From positions 1 to 30,111 of the IMG/VR virus record IMGVR_UViG_3300023434_000007: a stretch of DNA of 30,111 nt; one strand, given 5' to 3'. The notes beneath the pieces are model-generated. The model had not been told where the DNA came from. It did no database searches and saw only the letters and a program-made list of their open reading frames with translations. Positions 3,634 to 25,221 of the stretch are shown here, piece by piece. Numbering within the stretch: position 1 is the stretch's first letter; each line of letters starts with the position of its first letter. This DNA comes from a virus. Made by a program: the position numbers and the translations under genes.

Positions 3634-4095
3634 ATGGTACAGAATAAACTAGACGAAACATCTAAGTTAACATACGACGAGCGAAGAAAAATCCTATTGC
3701 AGAAGAAATCCAACGTCATGGAGAACAAGACTGAGGAAGTTATTGGAGACGAATCCAAGAACATAGAAGCAGTAGAATCCAAACTCGTGTCAACAGTCAA
3801 ATCCAGCATGGAAGTTGAGTATACTGAAGAAGGAATCAAACTTGCATACAAAGGCCTAGTCCAGGAGAAAACATATCACGACAAACATCTTGTTGAGATG
3901 AATAACAGCCTAAAAGAAGCAGGCGAAATGACTCCAGAGCTAACAAAGCTAAAAGAGGACTTGCAGACAATTGCTAAGATAGACCAAGCGGAGAAATCCA
4001 AAAAGGAAATCGAATCAACTGAGGACAGGCTCAAAATAGTCAACAAAGAAATCAACGAAATCAAAGAAGAAATCGGGTCCCAATTAAAGCTTTAA
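3634..4095 (+). CDS. coiled-coil protein, function unknown
   Basis: 153 charged residues rich in Glu and Lys, mostly helical. The last ~70 residues (LTKLKEDLQ to INEIKEEIGSQL) have heptad spacing typical of a coiled coil. There is no signal peptide and no recognised domain. The ribosome site GGAGGTAAAAAA ahead of the ATG is one of three almost identical strong sites in the window (also before 15480 and 25223), which hints at high expression, and a T-tract terminator follows. A structural or scaffold-like role is possible but not shown. Confidence 0.65.
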   Translation: MVQNKLDETSKLTYDERRKILLQKKSNVMENKTEEVIGDESKNIEAVESKLVSTVKSSMEVEYTEEGIKLAYKGLVQEKTYHDKHLVEMNNSLKEAGEMTPELTKLKEDLQTIAKIDQAEKSKKEIESTEDRLKIVNKEINEIKEEIGSQLKL

Positions 4096-4105
4096 TTTCA
4101 AAACA

Positions 4106-4127
4106 AATTTTATTTTTTATTTTTTAT
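4106..4127 (+). terminator. T-tract terminator
   Basis: An almost pure T run (ATTTTATTTTTTATTTTTTA) lies just after the stop of the coiled-coil gene. Archaeal RNA polymerase terminates on such T-rich non-template runs without needing a hairpin. Confidence 0.6.
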
Positions 4128-4128
4128 C

Positions 4129-4179
4129 GTTCAAAAATATTGAACACGCTGAACAGGAAAGCGTTCAAAAATCCTGAAC
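4129..4179. promoter_or_regulatory. paired 17-bp palindromes, candidate operators
   Basis: GTTCAAAAATATTGAAC (4129-4145) and GTTCAAAAATCCTGAAC (4163-4179) match at 15 of 17 positions; their centres are 34 bases apart. Each is an inverted repeat (GTTCAA/TTGAAC and GTTCA/TGAAC). They lie between a terminator and a run of tiny genes, eight bases before the first ATG. I infer binding sites for a dimeric regulator, perhaps the one at 2834. Confidence 0.55.
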
Positions 4180-4186
4180 AAACACA

Positions 4187-4273
4187 ATGGTATTAGAAAG
4201 GCATCCAAAAACAGGAAAATTTGCAAGAGAAATCCCAGAAGGCGAAGCTCCGGATATAGAGGAAGATGATTAA
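4187..4273 (+). CDS. 28-residue protein, function unknown
   Basis: A short frame starting MVLERHPKTGKFAREIP and ending in an acidic tail (EAPDIEEDD). It is listed because it directly follows the operator-like repeats and is joined to the next gene by the recurring TAA-A-ATG junction (one base between stop and start). The phrase HPKTGKFA resembles short substrate or DNA-tail motifs seen in many small phage proteins, but no function can be given. Confidence 0.45.
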   Translation: MVLERHPKTGKFAREIPEGEAPDIEEDD

Positions 4274-5558: not shown

Positions 5559-5984
5559 ATGGCAAAGATAACTGAAAAGACATTCAAGGCGGCACTCGTA
5601 AACTCAGGCGGAAACCAAGCAAGGATAGCCGAGAAGATGGAGAAGACCAGACAAGCAGTAGGATTATTCTTAAAAAAGCGACCAAAGATGCGAGAGCTAC
5701 TAGATTTAGAAGTTGTTAAATTGGTAGAAAACGCAGAAGATATAGTAGCAATGTCAATATTATCAAACAGAGATATAGACCAAAGCAAGTGGTTATTAAC
5801 AAACTCCAAAGTAGGAAAACAAAGGGGATGGGGACAAAAGCAGGAAATAGAACACTCTGGAGAGCAAAGTATAACCTTTCAAGAAGTAATCATGAGTGAT
5901 GAGACAATTAAGAAAATGAAAGAAGAATCAATTATGAAAATCAAAGATGATAAGAAAAATAACCTTAAGCCAAAAGCAAAGTGA
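5559..5984 (+). CDS. terS: terminase small subunit
   Basis: 141 residues. Residues 1-50 contain a helix-turn-helix (FKAALVNSGGNQARIAEKME then RQAVGLFLKKRPKMRELLD) like those of small terminases that bind the packaging start site and recruit the large subunit. The middle (AEDIVAMSILSNRDIDQSKWLL) is the usual helical oligomerisation region, followed by a Lys-rich tail. The start at 5559, one base after the preceding stop, is preferred to 5514. Its last 38 bases overlap the large subunit gene, as is common for terminase pairs. Confidence 0.8.
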   Translation: MAKITEKTFKAALVNSGGNQARIAEKMEKTRQAVGLFLKKRPKMRELLDLEVVKLVENAEDIVAMSILSNRDIDQSKWLLTNSKVGKQRGWGQKQEIEHSGEQSITFQEVIMSDETIKKMKEESIMKIKDDKKNNLKPKAK

Positions 5985-8900
5985 GATCCTTAATACTCTA
6001 GATGATGATGAACACACAGAAATCTTTATGGGTGGCGCAGCCGGTGGTTGCGGAGTTGGTGTAACTAAGGTCAGAACCACCACTACCCTAGGGGAAAGGT
6101 TTCTAAAAGATATTAAAAAAGGTGAAATTGTGCTTACTTTTAATAAGAAAAAGAATATTCTGGAATATAAGCCAGTGTTAGAAACTTTTATAAATGGTGG
6201 TTCCGTTGGATGTATAGAGTTAAAATTAAAAGATGGAACAAAAATCAACTTCACACAAGCGCATAAATTCTTATTTGATGGAGAATGGGTTGAGATTGGA
6301 GAACTTGCCAGAGGAGTATTGGGTAGAAGTAAAAGAAACGAATGGTCGGTATTTGATAAGCAACAAAGGGAGATTAAAGACAATCAATTGGAAAAATTCT
6401 GGAAAGATTATGATAATGAACCCCGGGATAACAAAGAAGGGTTACTTGAGAACAACTATTGTTTTAAATACAGGAAAGGAAGGCGTACAAATTCACAGAT
6501 TAGTAGCCAAAACATTTATTCCGAATCCGGAAAGCAAACCAGAAGTAAATCACAAAGATCTCAACAAACGAAACAATCAAATAGAAAATCTAGAATGGAT
6601 GACTGGAAAGGAGAACTTCCATCATGCGGAGAAACTAGGAAGAATGAACCCATTTATGGAGAATGTAGGGAATCGAGCAAATCTTCAAAGGAAGCCAGGG
6701 AGTCAGAACGGAATGAGCAAACTAACCGAGCAACAGGTAAAAGAGATAAGGGAGAAATTCATCCCGAGGAAATACGGGAGAAAGAAGTTGGCAGTGGAGT
6801 ACGGAGTAAAACCAAGTTGTATAAAGGACATTATAATAAGAAAAAGTTGGAAGCATGTGAAATAAATTTAAATGATATTTTAGAGATTAGATTTTATTGG
6901 CAAAATGAACCAATGTATGATATTGAAACAGAGAACGAATCCTATGTTTTGGCTAATGGGATAATTATTCACAACTCGAAAAGTTTTACAGGATGTTATT
7001 GGCAAATTAAACGAAGATTGAAGTATAAAGGTTCCAGAGGATTTCTCGCGAGAGCACGTCTTAAAGATTTGAAAGCATCAACACTCTTGACATTTTTTGA
7101 AGTTGCGAGTAAAATGGGGTTACAAATGGGTATAGACTATAATTACAATGCTCAGGCATCTTATATCACCTTCTCGAATGGAAGCGAAGAATATCTTAAG
7201 GACTTATTTTTATATCCAAGTGACCCTGAGTTTGTAAGTCTTGGTTCGACCGAGTATACTGACGGCTTTATTGATGAGATGGGTGACATTACTGAACAGG
7301 CGTACCAAATCATTCGAAGTCGTATGAGGTTCAAGTTGGATGAGTTCGGATTAATCCCAAAGATTGGGATGGGGAGCAATCCTTGTAAGACTTTTATTTA
7401 TAGAGATTTTTATAAGAAGTGGCGAGACAACGAACTCGAACCCTTCAAAGCATACGTGCCGGCGAGTGTTTACGACAACCCATTTATCTCAGTGCATTAT
7501 ATCGAGAATTTGAAGAAGCTAGACAAAAAGAACCGGGAGAGATTGTTGAATGGGAATTGGGAGTATGATGATGATCCAACAAAGATATTCAACTACGACT
7601 CAATCGTTGATTTATTCACAAATGAGGCCAAGCGAGGAAAGAAGTATTGCATAGTGGACCAGTCAGGATTCGGAAGGGATAGTTGCATGGTGTCGATTTG
7701 GGATGGGTTATTTATTACTGAGCTTTTACAATTTTCAGAAGGGCTGTCGAGTAGTGAGTTGGATGAGATACTAACAAGCAGAACAATCCCAAGAAGCCAT
7801 TGCCTAGTGGATGAGATTGGGGTGGGGTTCGGATTGAAGAAAGAAATGCCGGAGATTATCGGATTCGTAGCAAACGCGGCGCCACTAAAGAAAAAGAAGC
7901 AAAGCACGGATGATGAGGGGCTGGACAATTACAAGAACCTAAGAAGCCAGTGTTGGTTCGAATTAGCAAACCATGTTAACTCTGGGATGATTGGAATTTA
8001 TAGGGAGCTGCCAATCAACATCAAAGAATTAATTATTGAGGATTTAGAAGTCATGAAGCAAATGGACTCAGACAAAGATGCGAAGATGAGAGTGATAACA
8101 AAGAAAGAGCTTCATGACTCGGCCGCACTTAGCAGGTCAACGGATGCAGGTGATTGTCTGGTAGGAAATACCAACGTATTAACCACAAATGGATATAAAT
8201 TCATTAAGGATATTAATATTGGAGAAAAGGTAATAACTCCATATGGAAGCAGGAAAGTTTTAGAAGTAAAAAGGAAGAAATCAAAGCAAATTGTAAAAAT
8301 AAAATTTAATAATGGTAAGGAAATTTATTGCACACCAAATCACAAGATTTATCTAAATGATAGTTTTAAAAAGGTTAAAGCCCTTAAGATGAGAGAGTAC
8401 AAAGGAGAGATATTAAACACAAAAAATTTATTAAAATGGAGAATAAAGAGATTATTTACAAAGGAGAAAGATACAGGCTTTTATCCAGTGGAAGATATTA
8501 TTACAAGAAAAGAAATGGAAAAATCGAAGCATTGCATAGAAGAGTTTATGAGGATTCAACAGGAAGACCAATCCCTAAAGGATACTCGGTTCACCATATT
8601 GACGGAAACCATTTCAATAATAATCCAAAGAATCTTACAATCATTGAATCATCGGAACATCAAAGGATTCATGCAAAACAAAATATCAAAAACATTAAAA
8701 AAATATGTGAATTCTGTAAAAAAGAATTTATTGACAAAAGTGTACACCAATGCGGTAAATATTGCTCAAACAAATGTTTTCAAAACGCAAAGTATAAAGA
8801 AAAAAGATATTTTGAAAGAAGAAATTGTTTATACTGCGGAAAAGAATTCAGCGTCAAAAAACAAGACTCAACCAAATGCTGTTCAAGAAGTTGTGCTGCT

Positions 8901-9168
8901 AAGCTTATGTGGGGAAATAGACGTTTATGATTTAAAGGTTCAAAAAGACCATTGTTATTATGCTAATGATATTCTTGTTTCTAATTGCTTAATGATGAGA
9001 ATGTATTTTGAGATTAACCCAAACGAATCGGCGTGGGTTTTTACGGATCCAATTGACACCATCGAGGAAAATAACAAATTAAAAGTTTTTGGAGAAGGAG
9101 GCATAACAACAAAGGTAGTCGATGGCAAAGAAGTTCGAATGGTTAATGGGAGGATTCTCGTAGAATAG
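5947..9168 (+). CDS. terL: terminase large subunit with two inteins
   Basis: ATPase-nuclease motor that packages DNA into the prohead. The 1073-codon frame holds two inteins (6049-6975 and 8155-8985); after splicing about 487 residues remain, the normal size. The Walker A loop is rebuilt across intein 1 as GGAAGG|SKS. Walker B is IDEMG (7270-7284). Nuclease aspartates are in IVDQSG (7657), LVDEIG (7810) and DAGD (8152), the last directly before intein 2. So one intein disrupts the ATP site and the other the nuclease site, and the enzyme is inactive until both splice out. The start lies inside the small-subunit gene. Each intein also contains an HNH gene in another frame. Confidence 0.9.
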   Translation: MIRKITLSQKQSEILNTLDDDEHTEIFMGGAAGGCGVGVTKVRTTTTLGERFLKDIKKGEIVLTFNKKKNILEYKPVLETFINGGSVGCIELKLKDGTKINFTQAHKFLFDGEWVEIGELARGVLGRSKRNEWSVFDKQQREIKDNQLEKFWKDYDNEPRDNKEGLLENNYCFKYRKGRRTNSQISSQNIYSESGKQTRSKSQRSQQTKQSNRKSRMDDWKGELPSCGETRKNEPIYGECRESSKSSKEARESERNEQTNRATGKRDKGEIHPEEIREKEVGSGVRSKTKLYKGHYNKKKLEACEINLNDILEIRFYWQNEPMYDIETENESYVLANGIIIHNSKSFTGCYWQIKRRLKYKGSRGFLARARLKDLKASTLLTFFEVASKMGLQMGIDYNYNAQASYITFSNGSEEYLKDLFLYPSDPEFVSLGSTEYTDGFIDEMGDITEQAYQIIRSRMRFKLDEFGLIPKIGMGSNPCKTFIYRDFYKKWRDNELEPFKAYVPASVYDNPFISVHYIENLKKLDKKNRERLLNGNWEYDDDPTKIFNYDSIVDLFTNEAKRGKKYCIVDQSGFGRDSCMVSIWDGLFITELLQFSEGLSSSELDEILTSRTIPRSHCLVDEIGVGFGLKKEMPEIIGFVANAAPLKKKKQSTDDEGLDNYKNLRSQCWFELANHVNSGMIGIYRELPINIKELIIEDLEVMKQMDSDKDAKMRVITKKELHDSAALSRSTDAGDCLVGNTNVLTTNGYKFIKDINIGEKVITPYGSRKVLEVKRKKSKQIVKIKFNNGKEIYCTPNHKIYLNDSFKKVKALKMREYKGEILNTKNLLKWRIKRLFTKEKDTGFYPVEDIITRKEMEKSKHCIEEFMRIQQEDQSLKDTRFTILTETISIIIQRILQSLNHRNIKGFMQNKISKTLKKYVNSVKKNLLTKVYTNAVNIAQTNVFKTQSIKKKDILKEEIVYTAEKNSASKNKTQPNAVQEVVLLSLCGEIDVYDLKVQKDHCYYANDILVSNCLMMRMYFEINPNESAWVFTDPIDTIEENNKLKVFGEGGITTKVVDGKEVRMVNGRILVE
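6049..6975 (+). other. intein 1 (in Walker A of TerL), 309 residues
   Basis: Begins with Cys after GGAAGG and ends with the canonical His-Asn (GIIIHN) before Ser. Splicing blocks: CGVGVTKVRTTTTLG with DIKKGEIVLTF; block B as FTQAHKFLF plus GEWVEIGEL; C-terminal YDIETENESYVLANG. Between about 6340 and 6865 the intein frame encodes only a Ser/Arg/Lys/Glu-rich stretch with no motif, while another frame encodes a complete HNH enzyme. Excision joins GGAAGG to SKSF and restores the P-loop, which fixes both boundaries. Confidence 0.9.
6278..6865 (+). CDS. HNH endonuclease nested out of frame in intein 1
   Basis: A 195-residue NUMOD4-HNH homing endonuclease read in the +1 frame relative to TerL. Domains in order: NUMOD4 (LPEEYWVEVKETNGRYLISN then KGRLKTI, residues 10-36), HNH core (IHRLVAKTF with His73; EVNHKDLNKRNNQIENLEW with Asn91, His92 and Asn103), and a C-terminal helix-turn-helix (SKLTEQQVKEIREKF to GVKPSCIKDIIIRKSW). 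It matches free-standing intron and intergenic enzymes of the I-HmuI type. The frame is open from 6233; I prefer the ATG at 6278 because NUMOD4 begins soon after it. No good ribosome site is seen before either. The stop falls just ahead of the intein C-terminal blocks. Confidence 0.8.
   Translation: MENGLRLENLPEEYWVEVKETNGRYLISNKGRLKTINWKNSGKIMIMNPGITKKGYLRTTIVLNTGKEGVQIHRLVAKTFIPNPESKPEVNHKDLNKRNNQIENLEWMTGKENFHHAEKLGRMNPFMENVGNRANLQRKPGSQNGMSKLTEQQVKEIREKFIPRKYGRKKLAVEYGVKPSCIKDIIIRKSWKHVK
8155..8985 (+). other. intein 2 (at nuclease Asp of TerL), 277 residues
   Basis: Begins CLVGNTNVLTTNGYKFIKDI, with block B CTPNHKIYL and C-terminal VYDLKVQKDHCYYAND ending LVSN, followed by extein Cys. 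The penultimate residue is Ser instead of the usual His. Excision joins DAGD to CLMMRMYF, placing the nuclease aspartate next to its helix. From about 8430 to 8910 the intein frame shows no endonuclease motif; an HNH gene in another frame fills that space. Confidence 0.88.
8436..8930 (+). CDS. HNH endonuclease nested out of frame in intein 2
   Basis: 164 residues in the -1 (+2) frame relative to TerL. Residues 1-80 are an HNH_3-type enzyme: LHRRVYEDSTGRPIPKGYSV, HHIDGN (His53, His54), NNNPKNLTII and EHQRIHAK. Residues 90-155 are two cysteine knuckles (CEFCKKEF and CGKYCSNKC; CLYCGKEF and CCSRSCAAK). The ATG at 8436 directly follows the N-terminal intein blocks, and the stop overlaps the first codons of the C-terminal block, so it occupies exactly the usual endonuclease position but in the wrong frame for fusion. 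It must be translated on its own. AT-rich upstream bases show no clear ribosome site. Confidence 0.82.
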   Translation: MENKEIIYKGERYRLLSSGRYYYKKRNGKIEALHRRVYEDSTGRPIPKGYSVHHIDGNHFNNNPKNLTIIESSEHQRIHAKQNIKNIKKICEFCKKEFIDKSVHQCGKYCSNKCFQNAKYKEKRYFERRNCLYCGKEFSVKKQDSTKCCSRSCAAKLMWGNRRL

Positions 9169-9269: not shown

Positions 9270-12200
9270 ATGGAAAGAAAATCAGCCTCAATATTTTCAA
9301 ACTGCCCTTGGGAAACGGGTAGTAAATCAGTTCTACAACCATTCGGCCAGCAAGCAAATCAGCACACAAGACAATCAATAGGACCATACAACAAAGCAAC
9401 CGGCAACCCAAAACCAACTAGAAGCAATGCAGTGACCGTTTACGAAGAGACGAGAGACGGCCAACCCAAAGCATACATTCCAAACTTTTTCTACCGAGCA
9501 CCATTCGGATATCCAAGATATAAAGACCTTAATTATTACAGACAACTAGCAGCCTCAATTTATGTGGATATGTGTGTGACAGCAATCATCGATGAGGTGT
9601 GTTCGATTCAATATGAAATCGTAGCAGAGGACCGAGCAGGAAACGAAGTACCAGGAAAGGATGCAGATGTTGAGAGATTGCAGGACTTCTTCGAGAACCC
9701 AAACACAAACAAAGAGTCATGGGAAATGATTGTGAGAATGATGTTGCCAGATTTACTAGAACTTAACTCCGGAGTCATGGTGAAGATTTTTAACATGTTT
9801 GGAGAGATGGTTGAGATTTGCGCAAGGGATGGAATGGCATTCACAAAGAATCCCGATCCTTATGGATTTTACACGACTAGGGCAGACTTAATTTTAATGA
9901 AGAACATTCTTGGGGAAGGAGAAGAGCAAACCCAAACAATGGAATATCCGGCAATCCAAGCAGAGATGACGGCTGAGGATGCGCATGAAGAGGGCGCGTA
10001 CTTCCAATACGGATTCAACACAGGCGCCAGACCAATCCCATTCGGAAGGCGAGAGGTAGTGTGGTTTGAGAAGAAAGTTAGGACCGACAATTTATATGGC
10101 CGAAGCAGTATGGAAGTTTTGGCAAAGACGGTTCAGACATTAATCTACGCAGTGGAGAGTCAACTCGAATATTTCAACGACAACTCAATCCCTCCAGGAG
10201 TCTTGGGATTAGAAGGGATGAGTAGTGAGGATTTGACAGCGTTCGGACAACAGTGGATTCAGCAGCAAAAGGTGCAGGACGATCTGGGTAACTGGAAGAG
10301 AGCGAATCACAAACTCCCAATGGTTAACAAGATGCCAAAGTTCGAGAGATTAGGATTCACAAACCAGGAGCTAGAACTTATCGAAAGCCAGAAGTGGTGG
10401 TCAAAGCTAGTGTGGGGAGCCTTCGGGATTACAGCCACAGAACTAGGATTTTGTTATTCAGATGATACACAGGTTTTAACAGACAACGGACTCAAATATT
10501 ATTGGGAAATTAAAGAAGATGATAAAATTGCCACCATAATAAATCAAAAAGAAATAGAATATATAAAACCAGATAAAATTCATACATTTGACGTTAAAGA
10601 TAGAAACTTTCATTTTTATAAAAATAATTGTGTAGATGTTCTAGTTAGCGATAATCACAGAATGTATTATAGGACTCCTAAAAAAGAAGAATATAAATGT
10701 AGTCCCTCGAATGAAATAGATGTGGATACGGTTAAATTTCTACAAGGAGGACTGGGGTGGGAAGGGGAATATTTAGATGAAATCAACATACCCTTAGTAG
10801 AATATGAAAACAATAAAGATAAGGGAAGATATCAACAAACAACTTTTAATATAGATGAATGGTGTGAATTTTTAGGTTATTATTTGTCTGAAGGTTCTGT
10901 ATTAAAGAAGATGAGAGAAAGAAAACAATTTCATGTTAAAATAGCACAAGTAAAACCAGAGGGTATTAAAATTATGAAACCATTAGCTGAAAAAATGGGA
11001 TTCAGAAGAGAAAAGGTTTGCTGGACACTTAATAATAAATCTCTAGCCCTTTATTTGAGTAGATTTGGTGGAAGCTTAGAAAAGCATATTCCACAAGAAA
11101 TAAAGAATTTACCAAAGCCACAATTAAGAATATTATTAGATGCCTTGGTATCTGGAGATGGTTCAAGAAGGGAAGGGGAAGATTCATTTAATTATTCATC
11201 CAGTAGTAAGAGATTAATTGAGGATGTGTTTGAAATATGTTTAAAATTAGGATATAAGGCTTCTATTTACGAAAGAGAATTTGATAACCCAAAATGGAAT
11301 AAAACCTATGAACTTAATGTTAATATTTCGCAAAAAGAACCAAGAGTTGTTATATCTACTCAAAGATTTAATGAAAAATATACTGGAACAATGTGGTGTC
11401 CAAGCGTAAGAAACAGACCATTCATTACTTGTAGAAATGGAAAGGTAGGTATTCATTATAACACAGAAGATGCAAAAGGATCCGCAAACCAAATCGTACA
11501 GACAAGCGTAGCAAAGAAACGAATCATCTACCCTTTACTAAGATTAATCGAATACCACGTCAACACGGAAATCATCCCGGAGTTTGGAGTTGAAGGTGTA
11601 AGATACAAATACAAGATATTTGACATAGACGAAGAAACAAAGAAGTGGGGATTATACAAGTTGCAGACCGAATCAGACCTTAAGACAATCAACGAAGTGC
11701 GTAACGCAGAAGGATTAGATGATGTAGAATGGGGTGACAAGAATGTTGGAGAGAGAAGTCCAAATCAGGGAACGAACATAAACGTAGGGGATCCCCGACA
11801 ACAGGACGCAGACAAAATCAATAGGGATAGCGCAAACAATCGTGACAAGATGACAGGCAAGCCGGCTAAAGGAGATAAGCCAAAGGATGTCAAGAAGGCA
11901 TCAACCTCAGACTCACCAAACACACTAGGACCAGGAGAAGAACTAAGTCCATCCGAGAAGAAGCTAAAGAAGAACATCACAGACCTCCTAAAGGTCAATA
12001 AAAAGAAGGTGTTCGAATTACTAGAAGAACAAGGCAAGCCTGAACAATTACTACAGATTAAGGGAATAGACGATTTGCCAAGAATCATTAAGAAGATATT
12101 TGAGATTTTCACATTTAGAAAGGTAGTAGACGAAGTCATCAAAGTAAACTTTCAATTTGGATGGGACACCTCAGAGAAGCAAATAGACAAGAATATCCCA

Positions 12201-12653
12201 ATGAATAACAATGCAGTTCAGTTTTTACAAGACCACACGTTCGATAATGTAAAGGGAATGACAGAAGAAATAGCAAACAACCTAAAAGCCGAATTAGGCA
12301 GAGGAATAATCAACGGGGAAGGGGTAACAAAGCTAAAAGCAAGAGTGACAAAAGTATTCAACGTAGGAGATAATCGGGCCGAAATTATAGCTATAACAGA
12401 AGTCGGAAGAGCAGAAAATCAAGGAAAACTACTAGCAATGAAGGGTTCTGGATTGGATATGAAAAAACAATGGTTGAGCGCACATGATGACAGAACCTCA
12501 GATATTTGTAAGCATTTAGATGGTCAGATAGTCGGACTAGACGAAGACTTTCATTATAAGGATTGGTCTGGACAAAGTCCTCCCTCACATCCCAGATGCC
12601 GTTCTGTTTTGCTGTTTTTAGAAAAAGAAGAAGATAGTATCAGTTCTGAATAA
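9270..12653 (+). CDS. portal protein fused to MuF-type head protein, with intein
   Basis: 1127 codons including a 337-residue intein (10452-11462). The exteins form a phage portal: YYRQLAASIYVDMCVTAIID, the loop region with RREVVWFEKK, and the ELGF|TEDAKGSANQ motif split by the intein. Portals form the ring through which DNA enters. After a Pro/Ser/Lys-rich linker (near 11750-11960), the last ~100 residues are a MuF/SPP1 gp7-like domain: ITEVGRAENQGKLLA, WLSAHDDRTSDICKHLDGQ, PPSHPRCRS. In most phages that is a separate minor head gene downstream of portal; here the two are one chain of about 790 residues after splicing. Confidence 0.88.
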   Translation: MERKSASIFSNCPWETGSKSVLQPFGQQANQHTRQSIGPYNKATGNPKPTRSNAVTVYEETRDGQPKAYIPNFFYRAPFGYPRYKDLNYYRQLAASIYVDMCVTAIIDEVCSIQYEIVAEDRAGNEVPGKDADVERLQDFFENPNTNKESWEMIVRMMLPDLLELNSGVMVKIFNMFGEMVEICARDGMAFTKNPDPYGFYTTRADLILMKNILGEGEEQTQTMEYPAIQAEMTAEDAHEEGAYFQYGFNTGARPIPFGRREVVWFEKKVRTDNLYGRSSMEVLAKTVQTLIYAVESQLEYFNDNSIPPGVLGLEGMSSEDLTAFGQQWIQQQKVQDDLGNWKRANHKLPMVNKMPKFERLGFTNQELELIESQKWWSKLVWGAFGITATELGFCYSDDTQVLTDNGLKYYWEIKEDDKIATIINQKEIEYIKPDKIHTFDVKDRNFHFYKNNCVDVLVSDNHRMYYRTPKKEEYKCSPSNEIDVDTVKFLQGGLGWEGEYLDEINIPLVEYENNKDKGRYQQTTFNIDEWCEFLGYYLSEGSVLKKMRERKQFHVKIAQVKPEGIKIMKPLAEKMGFRREKVCWTLNNKSLALYLSRFGGSLEKHIPQEIKNLPKPQLRILLDALVSGDGSRREGEDSFNYSSSSKRLIEDVFEICLKLGYKASIYEREFDNPKWNKTYELNVNISQKEPRVVISTQRFNEKYTGTMWCPSVRNRPFITCRNGKVGIHYNTEDAKGSANQIVQTSVAKKRIIYPLLRLIEYHVNTEIIPEFGVEGVRYKYKIFDIDEETKKWGLYKLQTESDLKTINEVRNAEGLDDVEWGDKNVGERSPNQGTNINVGDPRQQDADKINRDSANNRDKMTGKPAKGDKPKDVKKASTSDSPNTLGPGEELSPSEKKLKKNITDLLKVNKKKVFELLEEQGKPEQLLQIKGIDDLPRIIKKIFEIFTFRKVVDEVIKVNFQFGWDTSEKQIDKNIPMNNNAVQFLQDHTFDNVKGMTEEIANNLKAELGRGIINGEGVTKLKARVTKVFNVGDNRAEIIAITEVGRAENQGKLLAMKGSGLDMKKQWLSAHDDRTSDICKHLDGQIVGLDEDFHYKDWSGQSPPSHPRCRSVLLFLEKEEDSISSE
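10452..11462 (+). other. intein 3 (portal), in-frame LAGLIDADG endonuclease
   Basis: Starts CYSDDTQVLTDNGLKYYWEI, with block B VSDNHRMYY, and ends GIHYN before extein Thr. Two LAGLIDADG motifs are in frame: LGYYLSEGS (about 10875) and LLDALVSGDGS (about 11135), so this is a classical intein-homing endonuclease fusion. Excision restores ELGF-TEDAKGSA, a conserved portal motif. The penultimate residue is Tyr rather than His, and block B has Ser in place of Thr. Confidence 0.9.
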
Positions 12654-17882: not shown

Positions 17883-18708
17883 AGATGACGGAGACTTCGC
17901 AACTGTGGCTGAGGTTAGGCGTATTTGTGGAATTGCTGCAGCAGAGATAAGCGACACGGATGTTGGACTTATGATAGTGGACGCAGAGGCTAAGATTCCA
18001 AGATTTTTTAATACATATTTCAAACCGACAGAGGTAATCGAGATTAATGATGGGGAAGGAACTAGTAGGCATCACCTCGAAAAGAACCCCGTGTTGGGCG
18101 TGAGAGCCTTAAAAATCGACGGGACCACAGTGGATCCAGACGACTTGGAGCTTCAGAAGGAATCGGGTTATATTTTTTTAGGAACAGGGGCAGAAGTGCC
18201 AACATTTTCAAGCAAGCGTAATTCTGTCGTAGTCAAATATGTGTATGGCAGTGTCATACATTCACAGACAGTCAGCACAACATCCTCGGCGGCAACCATC
18301 GCAGGTACGGGGGTCTCAGTCTCCGTTGCAAGCGAAACGGGATTCGCTGAGAATGATTGGGTTGAAATTTTAGGAATGGACGGATACCGAGAAGCGGCAA
18401 AGATAACTGCAACAGGAGTAGGAAGCATAACACTCGACCAATTAGTTTTAACACATGAGTCCGGGAGCAGCATTGTGAAATTAGAAGTAGAGCACATCTT
18501 CATCGAATTAATGAATACGGTTTGCGCAATTGCATGCGTTGCAAGAATTATCGGACAATCCTACACAGACATCGTAGGCTACACATTAGCAGAGATGCAT
18601 GTCCAAAAAGGAGAGCCGTACACACAATTTAGAGAAACTGCTAACCAGCTAATTAAACAAAGAGATGAGATGATGTCGAGGATAAGCATCAGACCAGCAA
18701 TATTCTAA
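17875..18708 (+). CDS. head-tail connector/adaptor candidate
   Basis: 277 residues. The start (FATVAEVRRICGIAAAEISD then VGLMIVDAEAKIPRFFNTYF) is the helical pattern of gp6/gp15-type head-tail adaptors, and the C-terminal part (LMNTVCAIACVARIIG to FRETANQLIKQRDEMMSRI) supplies the other helices. Between them sits a beta-rich insertion of about 130 residues (VIEINDGEG, LKIDGTTVDPDDL, SVSVASETGFAENDW) that is larger than in classical adaptors. Role inferred from position between capsid and neck genes. It overlaps both neighbours by a few bases. Confidence 0.6.
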   Translation: MAEDDGDFATVAEVRRICGIAAAEISDTDVGLMIVDAEAKIPRFFNTYFKPTEVIEINDGEGTSRHHLEKNPVLGVRALKIDGTTVDPDDLELQKESGYIFLGTGAEVPTFSSKRNSVVVKYVYGSVIHSQTVSTTSSAATIAGTGVSVSVASETGFAENDWVEILGMDGYREAAKITATGVGSITLDQLVLTHESGSSIVKLEVEHIFIELMNTVCAIACVARIIGQSYTDIVGYTLAEMHVQKGEPYTQFRETANQLIKQRDEMMSRISIRPAIF

Positions 18709-21062
18709 TGTCAGACTTCACACCACAGGGCGATATTAACCTACGAGATACTTATGAACTAGAAGGCGCTACAAAAGTCACAGCCACAGAATTCTATGGA
18801 GATGGTTCAAATTTAACTGGTGTTAGTGGAAACGTAAGCACCTCAGGAACCCCAATAGCAAACGACTTCGCAAGATTTTCAGCCGGAGCAGTGATTGCAG
18901 GTCTTTCTTATACTGAGACTAGAAGCGCTCTAAACATTGAAGATGGAGCAGATGTCACAGATTCAACAAACGTTGCCTCAGCAGGTGCGGCAATGGCAGG
19001 AGGAGCCTTCCATGATGGGTTCTCTGATTTTGTAGCAAACGAGCATCTCGATTGGACAGCAGACCAGGGAGCAATAAACATTCATTCAGGAAACTACACA
19101 GATACAAATACCCAATTAAGTGATGGAGACATTGGAGCATTTGGTTATACAAAAGATGTGGAAGTCGATTGGACAGTAGACCAAAATCCGGCTGTGATTA
19201 ATGCGGCAAACTACACTGATACAAACACAACCTACACAGCCGGAGATTTCGCGCATGATAGTTTGGCAAGTATTCCAGTAAACGACCATTTAGATTGGAC
19301 AGCAGACCAGGGAGCGAAAAACATCCATTCCGGAAATTATACTGATACAACATACGCAGCAAACCAAGTTTTAGACTGGACAGCAGACCAGGGGGCAACT
19401 AACATCAATGCAGGTAATTATACGAATACCGGAGACACAACAGCCCATGCCTCTTTTTCACAATTAGACTATGCAAGTGCAGGACACACAGGATTCGCAC
19501 CAGCTTTGACAGGCGACCAAAATTATGTTACTGATGATGATATAACACTTCTAGGAAATACAAGCGGAACAAATTCAGGAGATCAAGATATAAGCGGAAT
19601 AGGAACAAACACAACAGCGATCGATTTTAATACAACTCATAGGGGATTAACAAACAACCCACATTCAGTAGACAAAACAGATGTGAGTCTTGGAAATGTT
19701 CCGAATGTTGACTGTACAAATGCTTCAAATATTTCTAGTGGAACCATTTCAAGTGCAGTATTACCACCAGTAGCATTGACTTCGGTACAAACTGCAGTAA
19801 GTGAAGTGGCAATGTTAGCATTAACAACAGAAGAAGGTGATGTGGTTATTCGAACAGATGAGAATAAATCGTATATGCACAATGGCGGAAGCGCAGGAAC
19901 TATGGCAGACTTTACAGAATTACAAACTCCAACAGATAGTGTCTTGAGTGTTAATGGAGAAACAGGAACAGTAGTTTTAACGACTGGAGATATAGGTGTA
20001 GATGCAGATTCAAATTATGTAACAGACGCTCAAGTAACGGTAATCGGAAATACTACAAATACAAATTCTGGAGACCAAACAAGCATTGTAGGGATTACTG
20101 GAACCAAATCACAATTTAATACAGCAGTAACAGATGGAGATATAGCTTATAGTGGTGGAGCTTTCCATGATGGATTTTCTGATTTTGTTGTTAATGAGCA
20201 TCTAGACTGGACCACAGACAGAGGAGCAACAAATATCCATTCTGGAAATTATACTAACACAACCTATACTTCTTCAGATTTTACTCACGATAGTTTAACT
20301 GGAGTTACTGCTAACGAACATCTTGATTGGACAACCGATTTGGGTGCAACTAATATCAACGCTGCTAATTATACAGACACAGGGGACACAACAGACCACA
20401 CAGCTTTAAGTAATATTGGAACTCAAACTCACGCTCAACTCGAAACAGCAATCGGACTAAACACAGCAAAGGAAACGGACGTAGACCATAATGTAACAAC
20501 AAATATTACAGTAGTCGAAGCTCCAACAAATGTAGATATTCAATCAAGTGATGGAACAAATGATACTATTGCCGCTGCTAATGCGACGAACGCTGGGGTT
20601 ATGACAACTACTATGTATGATGAACATGTTGTTAATAATGCTAAAGATACAGATGTGAATCATAATGTTTCAACAAACCTAAGTGTAGGAACAAAGACAG
20701 CCACTACGATGGATGTTAATTCTTCTGATGGAACAAACGCAACTCTAGTTGAAGCAGATACTACAAATGCAGGACTATTAGGGGCAGACAAGTGGGATGA
20801 GATTGTTGCTAACACTAACAAAATTTCTTATAATTCAACAGCATCAACTAAACTAGGAACAATCGAAGAAAGTGCGGATGTGACAGACGCGACAAATGTT
20901 GTTAGTGCATTAAGCGCAGCAACATTGACTGGAGCATTAACTGCAGCAGACCACGGGACAGCAGCAACCGACCAAGTAGTTAATGTTTGTTACGGGACGG
21001 GAAGTCCACCAACAGCAAACACTACAACGATTGGAAGTTTGTTTGTGAAATACACGGCATAA
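18708..21062 (+). CDS. large repetitive fibre protein
   Basis: 784 residues rich in Thr, Asn, Asp, Ala and Gly, with many short repeats. The clearest is (N)EHLDWT(A/T)D(Q/R)GAxNIHSGNYT, present completely or partly about six times, plus repeated DGFSDFV and TNTxSGDQ segments. It opens with DINLRDTYELEGATKVTATE and GDGSNLTGVSG, a common start-of-fibre element. This is typical of trimeric tail or head fibres that touch the host surface. Placed between connector genes rather than after the tape measure, it may decorate head or neck. The last codon overlaps the next start (TAATG). Confidence 0.8.
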   Translation: MSDFTPQGDINLRDTYELEGATKVTATEFYGDGSNLTGVSGNVSTSGTPIANDFARFSAGAVIAGLSYTETRSALNIEDGADVTDSTNVASAGAAMAGGAFHDGFSDFVANEHLDWTADQGAINIHSGNYTDTNTQLSDGDIGAFGYTKDVEVDWTVDQNPAVINAANYTDTNTTYTAGDFAHDSLASIPVNDHLDWTADQGAKNIHSGNYTDTTYAANQVLDWTADQGATNINAGNYTNTGDTTAHASFSQLDYASAGHTGFAPALTGDQNYVTDDDITLLGNTSGTNSGDQDISGIGTNTTAIDFNTTHRGLTNNPHSVDKTDVSLGNVPNVDCTNASNISSGTISSAVLPPVALTSVQTAVSEVAMLALTTEEGDVVIRTDENKSYMHNGGSAGTMADFTELQTPTDSVLSVNGETGTVVLTTGDIGVDADSNYVTDAQVTVIGNTTNTNSGDQTSIVGITGTKSQFNTAVTDGDIAYSGGAFHDGFSDFVVNEHLDWTTDRGATNIHSGNYTNTTYTSSDFTHDSLTGVTANEHLDWTTDLGATNINAANYTDTGDTTDHTALSNIGTQTHAQLETAIGLNTAKETDVDHNVTTNITVVEAPTNVDIQSSDGTNDTIAAANATNAGVMTTTMYDEHVVNNAKDTDVNHNVSTNLSVGTKTATTMDVNSSDGTNATLVEADTTNAGLLGADKWDEIVANTNKISYNSTASTKLGTIEESADVTDATNVVSALSAATLTGALTAADHGTAATDQVVNVCYGTGSPPTANTTTIGSLFVKYTA
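19003..20380 (+). repeat. imperfect protein-coding repeats in fibre gene
   Basis: Copies of the NEHLDWTxDxGAxNIHSGNYT unit begin near 19039, 19284, 19368, 20196 and 20317, with a partial one at 19161. A longer duplicated block (GAFHDGFSDFV plus the unit) is seen at 19003-19095 and 20158-20250. The nucleotide copies differ mainly at third positions, so the duplication is old or under selection. Confidence 0.7.
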
Positions 21063-21898: not shown

Positions 21899-22510
21899 AT
21901 GGCAACAATAAAAACATTCAACGGAACAGGAGCAGACACAAGTGGAGCTTCAGGAGATTCGAATAGAGTCCTAATTCTGTCAAATACAGGAACAACACAA
22001 CAAAGTGGATTTTTAGTTTATGCGAGTGGATTGCCTTTAGGATTAGATTTAGAATACACAGTCAGTCACTTATCAGCTTCAACAGAAATAACATTCTTAA
22101 ACGGACTCTGGGATGATATGACGGTTGTAGTTAATTATTACGAGAAAGCAACTGTGGGAGTAAGTGGAGATTTCAACCTTGGGCCCCTTTCTGATTTTGG
22201 GGTTGTAGCAACTCGAACACCGGTGACAATGGCGCCAGACTACTCGGGAAATAAAAGTTATACTGACGGAACTGATGAGGATATCAACATAGTGATCAGC
22301 CCATACAAAGCAAAATATGACCTCGACAAATCAGGTTTAAACAAATCATACGATGCAATGGCATTCATCGGCCCGGACACAACGCTAAATAAATACGATA
22401 AGATAACACATGATTCCAGAGTGTACCGAGTCGACACAGTAAGTGTGAGAGATTTTGCAGGGACCGGAAGTTTTAAACTTGCAATGCTTTTTTATGTAGA
22501 AGATGAATGA
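21899..22510 (+). CDS. neck protein, head-closure/stopper candidate
   Basis: 203 residues starting MATIKTFNGTGADTSGASGD. The first ~95 residues are beta-rich (VLILSNTGTTQQSGFLVY); the second half (KYDKITHDSRVYRVDTVSVR to FKLAMLFYVED) has the strand pattern of head-closure (SPP1 gp16-like) proteins. Position directly before the gp10-like neck protein supports this. The end overlaps the next gene by 8 bases. The family assignment is by pattern and order only. Confidence 0.5.
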   Translation: MATIKTFNGTGADTSGASGDSNRVLILSNTGTTQQSGFLVYASGLPLGLDLEYTVSHLSASTEITFLNGLWDDMTVVVNYYEKATVGVSGDFNLGPLSDFGVVATRTPVTMAPDYSGNKSYTDGTDEDINIVISPYKAKYDLDKSGLNKSYDAMAFIGPDTTLNKYDKITHDSRVYRVDTVSVRDFAGTGSFKLAMLFYVEDE

Positions 22511-22958
22511 GATTGAAGAAGCGATTTGGAGAGCAATCCCACGAATAGCAATAAGGATTCAGAACGAACTAATTATAGCAGCTCCAGTAGATACTGGGAG
22601 ATTAAGAAATTCAATCAGGGTCACATCAGACGGGATGACACTAACAATCTCAATAGTCGATTATGCTTTTTATGTGGAGTTTGGATGCTTTTTTAAAGAC
22701 ACTATTCCTATTAAAACTAAGAAAGGAAACAAAAAATTAAAAGATTTGAAAATAGGGGAATTAATATGGACTGGAAAAGAATACAAAAAATTAATCCAAA
22801 AAGAAAAAATGGAGATTGGGTATCCAATAAAAAAGATTATTATGAAAACCAAAAATAAGAAATTAGAAATCACAGAGGACCATCCCATCTGGACAAGTAA
22901 AGGATGGAAGAAAGCTCATAAATTAAAAGTCAGAGATAGGATAAAAAAAATATGGTAA
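22503..22958 (+). CDS. gp10-like neck protein, N-half plus N-intein
   Basis: 151 residues. Residues 1-61 are the N-terminal half of an HK97 gp10-like neck protein (RIQNELIIAAPVDTGRLRNS, then IVDYAFYVEFG). At Cys62 an N-terminal intein segment begins (CFFKDTIPIKTKKG, LKDLKIGELIWTG, and block B ITEDHPIWTSKGWKKAH), and the frame stops eight codons after DRI at an A8 run. The rest of the neck protein is on the overlapping ORF at 22952. Splicing in trans, or a -1 slip followed by splicing in cis, would give a complete 122-residue gp10-like protein. Confidence 0.85.
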   Translation: MNEIEEAIWRAIPRIAIRIQNELIIAAPVDTGRLRNSIRVTSDGMTLTISIVDYAFYVEFGCFFKDTIPIKTKKGNKKLKDLKIGELIWTGKEYKKLIQKEKMEIGYPIKKIIMKTKNKKLEITEDHPIWTSKGWKKAHKLKVRDRIKKIW

Positions 22959-23560
22959 GGGCTGGGGGAACACCTTGGAATAAGGGTATTATAACAGAAA
23001 TAAAAATAGAATGTAAATGCGGGAAAAAGTTTTTTGTTAGCCCATCAAGAAAAGATACTGCCAAATTTTGTTCACAGGAATGCTATCATAAATATTCTAG
23101 ACATGATTATTCTAAAGGAAAGCATTGGAAGTTATCTAAAGAAACAAGAACAAAGCAAGGATTATCTCAGACTGGGAAAAAAAATCACAATTGGAATGGA
23201 GGAATAACAAATCCAAGAAAAAATAAGGAAGAAAAAGTTTGGGTTAGAGCAGTAAAAAAACGTGATAAATTTTGTGTTATTTGTGGGATTAAAAAAATAG
23301 AATCCCATCATCTTAATGGATTTGATAAATTTCCAAAAGAAAGATATGATGTTAAGAATGGAGTTGCCTTATGTGAAAAACATCATAAAGAATTTCATAA
23401 AAAATATGGATATGGAAAAAACACAAAGAAACAATTCGAAGAATTTATAACAGAAGAAATAATTGATATTGAAACTATTTTGATGAATAAATCAACAATT
23501 TATAATTTAACATTAGAAGGAGAAGATACGTTCTTTGCTAACGGTATATTCACACATAAC
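22686..23560 (+). other. intein 4 (gp10-like), split across two frames
   Basis: N-intein starts at Cys (22686) and C-intein ends FTHN (23560) before Thr. Excision joins YVEFG to TPPHIIKPK, the expected continuous gp10 motif, which fixes both ends. The region is 875 bases, not a multiple of three: N-terminal blocks are in one frame, and HNH plus C-terminal block STIYNLTLEGEDTFFANG are in the -1 frame. Confidence 0.88.
22943..22949 (+). promoter_or_regulatory. A-AAA-AAA slippery heptamer at intein split
   Basis: An A8 run (22943-22950) in phase ATA AAA AAA ATA gives a classical -1 slippery heptamer six bases before the zero-frame stop (22956). A -1 slip here reads AAA AAT ATG and enters the HNH-C-intein frame without interruption. 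Independent initiation at the overlapping ATG (22952) is the alternative. Confidence 0.5.
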
Positions 23561-23746
23561 ACGCCACCACATATAATCAAGCCAAAAGACAAGAAGGCAC
23601 TCAAATTCAAAGTAGGAAATGGCAAGGTGTTCGCTAAGGTTGTTAAACATCCAGGAACAAGACCAAACCCATTCATAAGAAACACGATTCGAAACAAACT
23701 AGCAGGAATTATCCAAGAAGAGATAACAAAACAATTCGCGAATTAG
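22952..23746 (+). CDS. HNH endonuclease fused to C-intein and gp10 C-half
   Basis: 264 residues in three parts. Residues 1-160: a zinc-knuckle HNH enzyme (CKCGKKFFVS and FCSQEC; NUMOD-like GKHWKLSKETRTKQGLS; KKRDKFCVICGIKKIESHH with Cys108, Cys111, His119 and His120; CEKHH). Residues ~181-203: C-intein ending THN. Residues 204-264: C-terminal half of gp10 (TPPHIIKPKDKKALKFKVG, KVVKHPGTRPNPFI). The start MVRAGGTPWNKG resembles the natural beginning of free-standing HNH enzymes, suggesting an HNH gene with its own ATG was inserted into the intein. Essential neck function then depends on this ORF. Confidence 0.85.
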   Translation: MVRAGGTPWNKGIITEIKIECKCGKKFFVSPSRKDTAKFCSQECYHKYSRHDYSKGKHWKLSKETRTKQGLSQTGKKNHNWNGGITNPRKNKEEKVWVRAVKKRDKFCVICGIKKIESHHLNGFDKFPKERYDVKNGVALCEKHHKEFHKKYGYGKNTKKQFEEFITEEIIDIETILMNKSTIYNLTLEGEDTFFANGIFTHNTPPHIIKPKDKKALKFKVGNGKVFAKVVKHPGTRPNPFIRNTIRNKLAGIIQEEITKQFAN

Positions 23747-23751
23747 AAAAC

Positions 23752-23763
23752 AAGATTTAAAAA
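23752..23763 (+). promoter_or_regulatory. TATA-like promoter of tail genes
   Basis: AAGATTTAAAAA after the gp10 gene; a start 26 bases on would give a leader of roughly 35 bases before the ATG at 23819, which also has an AAGAGGAAA ribosome site. Confidence 0.45.
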
Positions 23764-23818
23764 CATGCTAGAGTTAAGAATACTAAGCCAAGCGGCATAA
23801 CATTCCAAGAGGAAACAA

Positions 23819-24454
23819 ATGGACATACCAAAAATCAAATCAGAGCAGGTAGACTTTCTAAGAAATAATAATGTATTTACTATCAGTGAGAGGGGCGTGA
23901 CAACCGATACTCAAGAGGATACATTGGCAGCAGAGGACACAATCACAATTGCACTATCAACGGTTAAGAACATTCGAAGCATTACGGTTGGAGGAACCTC
24001 AAAATATCTCGGGACCGATTGGAATGCAGATTATAAGAATGCGGCCGGTTGTTTAATTACATTCGAAGCAGACCAAACAGGGGCATACGTCGTGACTTAT
24101 GATTATGGCGGAGACAAAATATACCCAGACTTTCCAAGAAACGATTTAACAATAAACTCATACCCACGAATCGCAGTAGATGTGATAAACGTTGCAACCG
24201 ATGCGCTAGGGATAGGCGGAGACAGCTTTATATCAAACGTAGCAATTACGATCGTTGTATACGCAGACAACTCAGACGACCTAGACACCTACATCCAAGC
24301 AATCAAAGAACTCTACGTTTCTAACGCAAAAAACTTTTATTATTTAAAATTTGTTAAGCCAACATTTATCGGACCAACAATTAAATCCCAAGACAAAAAA
24401 GATGAGATTATGCAAAAAAATATCGACATCATGGGGATGTTCAATGTTGAATAA
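23819..24454 (+). CDS. tail terminator/completion candidate
   Basis: 211 residues. The N-terminal ~95 residues are beta-rich (VTTDTQEDTLAAEDTITIAL, AYVVTYDYGG). The second part has the alternating strand-helix pattern of tail terminators: NSYPRIAVDVINVATDALGI, ISNVAITIVVYADNSDDLD, TYIQAIKELYVSN, NFYYLKFVKP. Its place between gp10 and tail tube is that of a tail terminator. Family assignment is by order and pattern. The last 11 bases overlap the next start. Confidence 0.55.
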   Translation: MDIPKIKSEQVDFLRNNNVFTISERGVTTDTQEDTLAAEDTITIALSTVKNIRSITVGGTSKYLGTDWNADYKNAAGCLITFEADQTGAYVVTYDYGGDKIYPDFPRNDLTINSYPRIAVDVINVATDALGIGGDSFISNVAITIVVYADNSDDLDTYIQAIKELYVSNAKNFYYLKFVKPTFIGPTIKSQDKKDEIMQKNIDIMGMFNVE

Positions 24455-24662
24455 AGCTAAAAAGCGTTTAATGACGGATGTCGCGAAAGGGAAGTTAACA
24501 ATGGCTCAGGCTGAAGAACTAATGGAACCCGCCCAAGATGACAAAAATAATTCAGAAAAAGAAATCATCGACGACGAACTAACCGCGCAGAAGAAGAAAA
24601 CTCAAATGAGAAAACTAAATCCAAAGAAGAAAATTTTAAAAAAGCAGGAGATGTCTTCTTAA
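24444..24662 (+). CDS. small charged protein, function unknown
   Basis: 72 residues starting MLNKAKKRLMTDVAKGKLTM with a helical AQAEELMEP segment, an acidic middle and a Lys-rich end. The ATG at 24444 gives a short overlap with the preceding gene; the longer frame from 24351 would be nested in it. One base separates its stop from the HNH gene. Not recognised. Confidence 0.5.
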   Translation: MLNKAKKRLMTDVAKGKLTMAQAEELMEPAQDDKNNSEKEIIDDELTAQKKKTQMRKLNPKKKILKKQEMSS

Positions 24663-24663
24663 T

Positions 24664-25221
24664 ATGGCACAATTTGAGAAAGGACAGAGTGCAAATCCAG
24701 AAACACAATTCAAAAAGGGATGCATCCCATGGAACAAGGGAAAGAAAGGTTACAAAGTTAAAACTGGAAATTATAATAAGAAATCAGGATTCCAAGAAGG
24801 TCATGCAAATTATCATAAGGAATGTCATACTTGGAGCATGGAATCTAGAATAAATAAAAGTTTAGAACAGACTGGAGATAAAAAATTTACTGGATTTAAG
24901 AGAGAATTAAGGGGAAGAATTATGATGATGAGAGAATATTTAGAATGGAGAGCAGATGTTTTCAAACGTGATAATTATCATTGTCAACATTGTGGAAAAA
25001 AAGGATATTTGGAAGCACACCATATAATCGCATTTTCAAAACTATTAAAACTATTTAACATAACTACATCCGAACAGGCAAGAAAATGTAAGGAATTATG
25101 GGATATAGGAAATGGAATAACTTATTGTAAACCCTGTCATATTTTACTAGATGAAAACATTGGGAAACGAGGATTAGGAATCAAACTAAAATTAAATAAC
25201 ACGGGAGGTAAAAAAAACTAA
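24664..25221 (+). CDS. free-standing HNH homing endonuclease
   Basis: 185 residues. The N-terminal DNA-binding part has TQFKKGCIPWNKGKKG, close in style to the start of the enzyme at 22952. The core is FKRDNYHCQHCGKKGYLEAH (Cys107, Cys110, His119, His120), followed by CKPCH (Cys155, Cys158, His159). Inserted between the small gene at 24444 and the tail tube gene with one-base gaps at both ends. Its last codons, GGA GGT AAA AAA AAC TAA, contain the ribosome site of the tube gene, as the HNH gene at 3207 does for its neighbour. Confidence 0.85.
   Translation: MAQFEKGQSANPETQFKKGCIPWNKGKKGYKVKTGNYNKKSGFQEGHANYHKECHTWSMESRINKSLEQTGDKKFTGFKRELRGRIMMMREYLEWRADVFKRDNYHCQHCGKKGYLEAHHIIAFSKLLKLFNITTSEQARKCKELWDIGNGITYCKPCHILLDENIGKRGLGIKLKLNNTGGKKN

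Follow-up and report, generated by a model that had tools for sequence, protein, structure and literature searches.

A viral neck gene divided by a putative split intein whose C-terminal half carries an HNH endonuclease

We studied a broken gene of the gp10/Neck1 family in the genome of an uncultured tailed virus (IMG/VR record IMGVR_UViG_3300023434_000007). The window that we analyzed is the whole record of 30,111 bases, and positions are in its numbering. The gene is divided between two overlapping open reading frames (ORFs), ORF1 (22503-22958) and ORF2 (22952-23746). We think it quite likely, from the sequences of this virus and its relatives, that the two ORFs encode the halves of a split intein that splices in trans and that still carries a homing endonuclease on its C-terminal half. 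How naturally split inteins originate is an open question, and this arrangement may show how they arise. In some of its relatives the parts are fused and in one they are fully separate, so that their sequences record part of the path.

A neck gene in two overlapping reading frames

The preliminary description of this locus placed an N-extein and N-intein in one frame and an HNH domain, C-intein, and C-extein in another frame that overlaps it, and both ORFs are indeed present at the stated positions. Each has its own start and stop, and ORF2 is in the -1 frame relative to ORF1; the parts of this locus are all on the plus strand. ORF1 begins with 61 codons of gp10/Neck1 N-extein (22503-22685), which match PF04883 (E = 3.4e-5), phrog_5 (E = 5.5e-8), and phrog_169 (E of about 1e-7). 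These are followed by an N-intein of 90 residues (C62 to W151, 22686-22955) and a stop codon (22956-22958). The N-intein has a cysteine as its first residue (C62) and a block B of TEDH (T124 to H127), and it matches the Hint-type Pfam families Vint and Intein_splicing, with weak scores. The start codon of ORF2 overlaps the stop codon of ORF1 within the sequence ATGGTAA (22952-22958). ORF2 then encodes the HNH domain (22952-23446), a C-intein of about 38 residues with blocks F and G that ends in GIFTHN (23447-23560), and a C-extein of 61 codons that begins with T204, the +1 threonine (23561-23743, with the stop codon at 23744-23746). The HNH domain is thus encoded between the N- and C-terminal splicing regions, at the canonical insertion point for an endonuclease. 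It contains a zinc-ribbon-like region (CxC..CxxxC, residues 21-44) and an HNH core (CxxC..HH..N..H, residues 108-149), and it matches PF13391 with E = 0.001, which is slightly under the curated cut-off. The C-intein has a partial match to PF14890, also under the cut-off, and it is recognized by our own hidden Markov model.

The 61 residues before Cys62 and the 61 residues from Thr204 form a protein of 122 residues, and this protein matches phrog_5 (tail completion/Neck1) with 57.7 bits and E = 3e-15. By comparison, the N-terminal half alone scores 33.9 bits, and the C-terminal extein alone has no match. The match to the HK97 gp10/Neck1 family spans the join. The joined protein is also 56% identical to the intein-less homologue from another viral contig (L061), without any gap at the join (VEFG-TPPH versus VEYG-TNPH), so the join that had been proposed, YVEFG-TPPH, is correct. 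In the known phages that we searched, we found only matches to HNH domains or to intein-less Neck1 proteins.

Profile comparisons to the PDB gave matches with weak E-values. The N-terminal half matched the PI-MtuI, DnaX, gp41-1, and NrdJ-1 inteins, and the C-terminal half matched the C-terminal end of gp41-1. We used structure models as support only. The best fold match for the model of ORF1 was gp41-1, and the HNH part of ORF2 matched T5 SciA (probability 0.99) and the GVE2 HNH endonuclease 5h0m (probability 0.98). The PDB profile of this part also matched 5h0m. Pfam, the PDB profile, and the predicted fold all assign the endonuclease to the HNH family.

The break is conserved in diverged lineages

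Scans of viral contigs identified six diverged homologues in which this intein occupies the identical site, which gives seven lineages with the window. Their ORF1 proteins are 77% (L008/L004), 70% (L007), 57% (L013), 46% (L076), and 42% (L078 and L098, each) identical to that of the window. In all seven lineages, the break is where the endonuclease is inserted, and none is continuous. The viral-contig profile scans (P0001, P0002, and A1-A4) found no continuous cousin at the same site, and two scans of genome contigs found zero relatives.

In every lineage, the start of the second ORF is in contact with the stop of the first. The junction is ATGGTAA in the window, L007, L013, and L078; TAATG in L076; ATGGTTTTTAA in L008; and ATGGCATTTAA in L098. 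The second ORF is in the -1 register in five lineages and in the +1 register in the other two, so the register can vary without loss of either protein or of the contact between start and stop. In this AT-rich stretch, the frequency of ATG at any one codon position is about 1-3%, and the chance that a start and a stop would be in contact, within 1-11 nucleotides, is roughly a tenth or less per lineage. Because the lineages are related, we did not multiply these chances.

The residues that would be needed for splicing are also conserved. C62, T124, H127, H202, N203, and T204 are invariant in all seven lineages. Each lineage has two ORFs with an extein and half of a Hint domain apiece, along with Cys1, TxxH, the penultimate His, the Asn, and Thr+1, as in naturally split inteins. 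The single continuous frame of a full-length intein with a nested endonuclease is not what we found. An HNH domain with its own ATG that is fused in frame to the C-intein, as first described for the window, is present in six of the seven lineages, and the zinc ligands and HNH residues are invariant across these fused forms; in L098, the HNH domain and the C-terminal half are separate. We also looked for charge complementarity of the kind seen in DnaE inteins. The N-intein is basic in six lineages and the C-intein is neutral to weakly acidic, with L098 deviating, and no clear rule emerged.

The break in the window adjoins a run of eight A's (22943-22950), which raises the concern that an error in sequencing or assembling this homopolymer has disguised an ordinary intein with one continuous frame and an in-frame HNH domain. 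It had been suggested that reads with seven or nine A's would restore such a frame. Because ORF2 is in the -1 frame, nine A's (or six) would do so, but seven would not. However, nearly identical assemblies from two other metagenomes (L002, with 99.99% identity, and L003, with 99.9% identity over 7.7 kb) have the same split frames, and L008, L076, L078, and L098 lack the A8 run at the junction yet are broken at the same place. Because diverged lineages share the break in either of two frames, we give essentially no credence to this kind of error. Given that L002 and L003 share the break and that six diverged homologues keep it, the break is a real arrangement and is due neither to chance nor to read errors.

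Another potential explanation is that the gene is rejoined at the RNA level, by an intron that encodes the HNH protein. As is generally known, HNH genes are common in group I introns. But Rfam has no matching family for positions 22000-24200 at E-values of up to 1, and the blocks of an intein are conserved in the protein sequence, where the catalytic residues are invariant. We consider an intron to be extremely improbable.

Translation of the second reading frame

The A8 run could also be a slippery site for -1 frameshifting (A AAA AAA); L007 retains the run, and T TTA AAA takes its place in L013. If frameshifting were programmed, then the product would be one continuous, cis-splicing intein that bears the HNH domain, and the ATG of ORF2 would be incidental or a second route to expression. 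Slippery heptamers do lie directly before the stop in the window and L007 (A AAA AAA) and in L013 (T TTA AAA), and the junction of L008 (TTT TAA) is conceivably a +1 shifty stop. On the other hand, there is no heptamer in L076 or L078, and L098 lacks one at the junction: its one heptamer is about 30 nucleotides upstream of the overlap and would shift in the wrong direction, as the register of L098 is +1. Furthermore, the register is not constant, the ATG is at the stop in all seven lineages, and we saw no notable downstream RNA structure in the four lineages that we folded. Programmed -1 frameshifting would be expected to show a conserved slippery site and a constant register, and we found neither. 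So we consider it unlikely, if still worth bearing in mind. Slippage may contribute to expression in some members, but it does not account for the family as a whole.

Nearby genes in this virus likewise adjoin or overlap one another, and a clear Shine-Dalgarno sequence is missing from many of them. The junction of ORF1 and ORF2 thus resembles an ordinary gene boundary. In some relatives, the codons for KKGD resemble a Shine-Dalgarno sequence 12-20 nucleotides off from the start of the second ORF, but these codons encode a common intein motif and we did not count them.

If the two ORFs encode a trans-splicing intein, then expression would proceed as follows. ORF1 would be translated as gp10N-IntN, and a ribosome that finishes ORF1 at the TAA could restart on the overlapping ATG and produce HNH-IntC-gp10C. 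The two halves of the Hint domain would associate, and Cys1 and Thr+1 would drive splicing in trans, which would yield the whole 122-residue Neck1 protein, IntN, and HNH-IntC. The HNH enzyme might then nick or cut the uninterrupted gp10 site (VE[FYW]G-T) of relatives that infect the same cell, and both ORFs could be copied in together as one cassette.

Selection and movement of the intein

An intein that has recently broken might simply be decaying, without splicing, while gp10 is supplied in some other way or not at all. To compare nonsynonymous and synonymous divergence (dN and dS), we used four lineages (the window, L007, L008, and L013). For the N-intein, dN/dS was about 0.1-0.26, and dN was less than dS for the HNH domain, the C-intein, and the exteins wherever dS could be estimated (some pairs of C-exteins were saturated). 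Both halves are under purifying selection in these lineages. Besides this selection and the invariant catalytic residues in all seven lineages, there is no sign of another source of gp10: in a near-identical contig of 41.7 kb, the ORF1 profile did not reveal a second gp10 locus, and its only other match was to a terminase intein. We therefore view decay as a very improbable account.

The intein is less diverged than the gene that it interrupts. Between the window and L008, dS is 0.40 for the N-intein versus 1.9 for the N-extein. At the DNA level, the identity of these two is 89% for the N-intein, 72% for the HNH core, and 83% for the C-intein, versus 69% and 60% for the exteins. L061 lacks the intein, although its neighboring genes resemble those of the window as closely as the L008 neighbors do. 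A fixed site, occupied and empty relatives, and an intein that is less diverged than its host gene are the pattern expected of a recently moving homing element. It appears, from these comparisons, that the intein moved between viruses more recently than the host gene diverged.

Several observations weigh against the interpretation of this locus as a trans-splicing intein with a homing endonuclease. First, slower evolution of the intein could account for part of its lower divergence. Second, our estimates of selection cover four of the seven lineages, and as the lineages are related, they do not represent seven independent origins. Third, three of the seven lineages have a slippery heptamer at the junction. 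Finally, confidence in the structure models is modest, and the C-intein on its own was modeled as unstructured, with low confidence, as might be expected for half of a Hint fold.

A relative with three reading frames

The preliminary description called for a search for relatives whose parts are apart, and in L098 they are further separated. This lineage has three ORFs, which encode the N-terminal half, the HNH protein, and the C-terminal half. The HNH ORF (3767-4255) stops early, and MKQEKILNVRIENRLQSTIYNITLEG...THN-TPPH begins on a new ATG at 4258. The old linker from the HNH domain to the C-intein is still recognizable in another frame (NTLSQFIEFVKDE versus NTKKQFEEFITEE); in a shuffle test of its similarity to six homologues, the P values were 0.001 to 0.02 for five of them and 0.13 for the other. 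Because the old linker can still be read, the three-ORF form of L098, which is known from one contig, seems to have arisen from the HNH-fused form. The proposal that the window is intermediate between a nested and a fully split form thus fares well for the step from an HNH-fused form to three ORFs. The step from a nested, continuous intein to a split one would be a conjecture, as we found no continuous ancestor.

Comparison to known systems

Split inteins in "fractured genes" (gp41-1, NrdJ-1, IMPDH-1, and their relatives) were reportedly described by Dassa et al. in 2009 (NAR 37:2560), and the endonuclease in these genes is said to be a free-standing ORF from a Vsr-like family. That arrangement resembles ours in that the gene is broken at the endonuclease site of the intein, there are two precursor ORFs, and the endonuclease is encoded between the halves. 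Also, both Hint halves of our intein resemble gp41-1. In contrast to the fractured genes, the endonuclease here is HNH and is fused in frame to the C-intein in the window and five other lineages; it is separate only in L098. We also noticed a locus in two other contigs (L170/L171, 2349-4108) with a dUTPase-like gene that is fractured into an N-terminal half, an ORF for a Vsr-like endonuclease with zinc-finger-like repeats, and a C-terminal half. These names are by sequence inspection only, and the locus looks like the classic three-ORF fractured layout.

As in full-length inteins with nested endonucleases, the endonuclease of the window occupies the canonical insertion point, and one chain holds both it and the C-intein. 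Unlike in those inteins, the N-terminal splicing half ends at a stop codon, and the endonuclease begins with its own ATG, in any register. One review classifies inteins as full-length with an endonuclease, mini, or split (PMC7765530), and naturally split inteins have been described as mini-inteins (PMC6801210). When we searched the literature for split inteins with a fused or out-of-frame endonuclease, we found only reviews, a paper on ShiLan, and one announcement. The "hidden" HNH of ShiLan (PMC11855218) also has its own start and lies in a different frame from the upstream portion of its host gene, but it is not an intein and the host frame stays open, whereas here there are Hint halves and the upstream frame closes. 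Similarly, in Aeromonas phage Aeh1, the homing endonuclease mobE splits a phage gene (NrdA) that still functions (cited in PMC10448857). Aeh1 NrdA differs from our case in that there is no intein, each piece of NrdA works as a peptide of its own, and the endonuclease has a gene to itself.

If splicing does occur, these would be new natural split inteins with threonine at +1 and with a large natural cargo on IntC. The homing enzyme would also have its own start and would be translated separately from the upstream half of its host gene.

HNH genes in the terminase inteins

The terminase (TerL) gene of the same virus (5947-9168) contains two inteins (at about 6049-6975 and 8155-8985). Within each of them, an HNH gene that starts on an ATG of its own (6233-6865 and 8436-8930) is overprinted out of frame, and the frame of the intein remains open. 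This layout is kept in homologues (L159-L161; L174 and L175). The overprinted HNH frame is under purifying selection, while the frame of the terminase intein linker is near neutral and free of stops. With synonymous reshuffling, about 16 and 5 stops would be expected in the two linker frames (P < 0.0005 and P < 0.0015 for having none). In the literature that we examined, an out-of-frame HNH was described only in a non-intein methylase insert, for ShiLan (PMC11855218) and in an announcement for phage Applejack (PMC12613952). Given these overprinted terminase genes, the gp10 case fits a wider pattern of HNH genes that keep their own starts inside inteins.

Together, the gp10 case and the overprinted genes in the terminase inteins suggest that HNH genes could be agents of intein splitting. 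We are evenly balanced about a broader proposal: that this would be a fourth natural configuration of inteins, split yet endonuclease-bearing and maintained in diverged viral lineages, in which the start of the HNH gene forms the split; that HNH genes with their own translation have colonized inteins again and again, turning them from continuous to split; and that L098 would represent the last step, to a free-standing endonuclease.

As separate observations, HNH-like ORFs are overprinted on inteins that remain open in several other viral contigs (L041, L069, L071/L072, L162, and L166/L167), and some of these inteins, at least, are in terminase genes.

Other features of the virus

A free-standing HNH gene (24664-25221) is missing from the near-identical assembly L003, where the alignment jumps from 24626 to 25188. 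Judging from the alignment, this gene is apparently a second mobile HNH, with its site occupied in the window and empty in L003. Elsewhere, one ORF (9270-12653) combines a portal with a Mu-F-like domain and has an in-frame, LAGLIDADG-bearing, intein-type insert in the portal part. A repeat-rich protein of 784 residues (18708-21062), with units such as DWTADQGAxNIHSGNYTDT and with internal repeats in its DNA, is probably a tail fiber. Described phages are only distant relatives of this virus, and its major head protein has a weak match to a haloarchaeal tailed virus.
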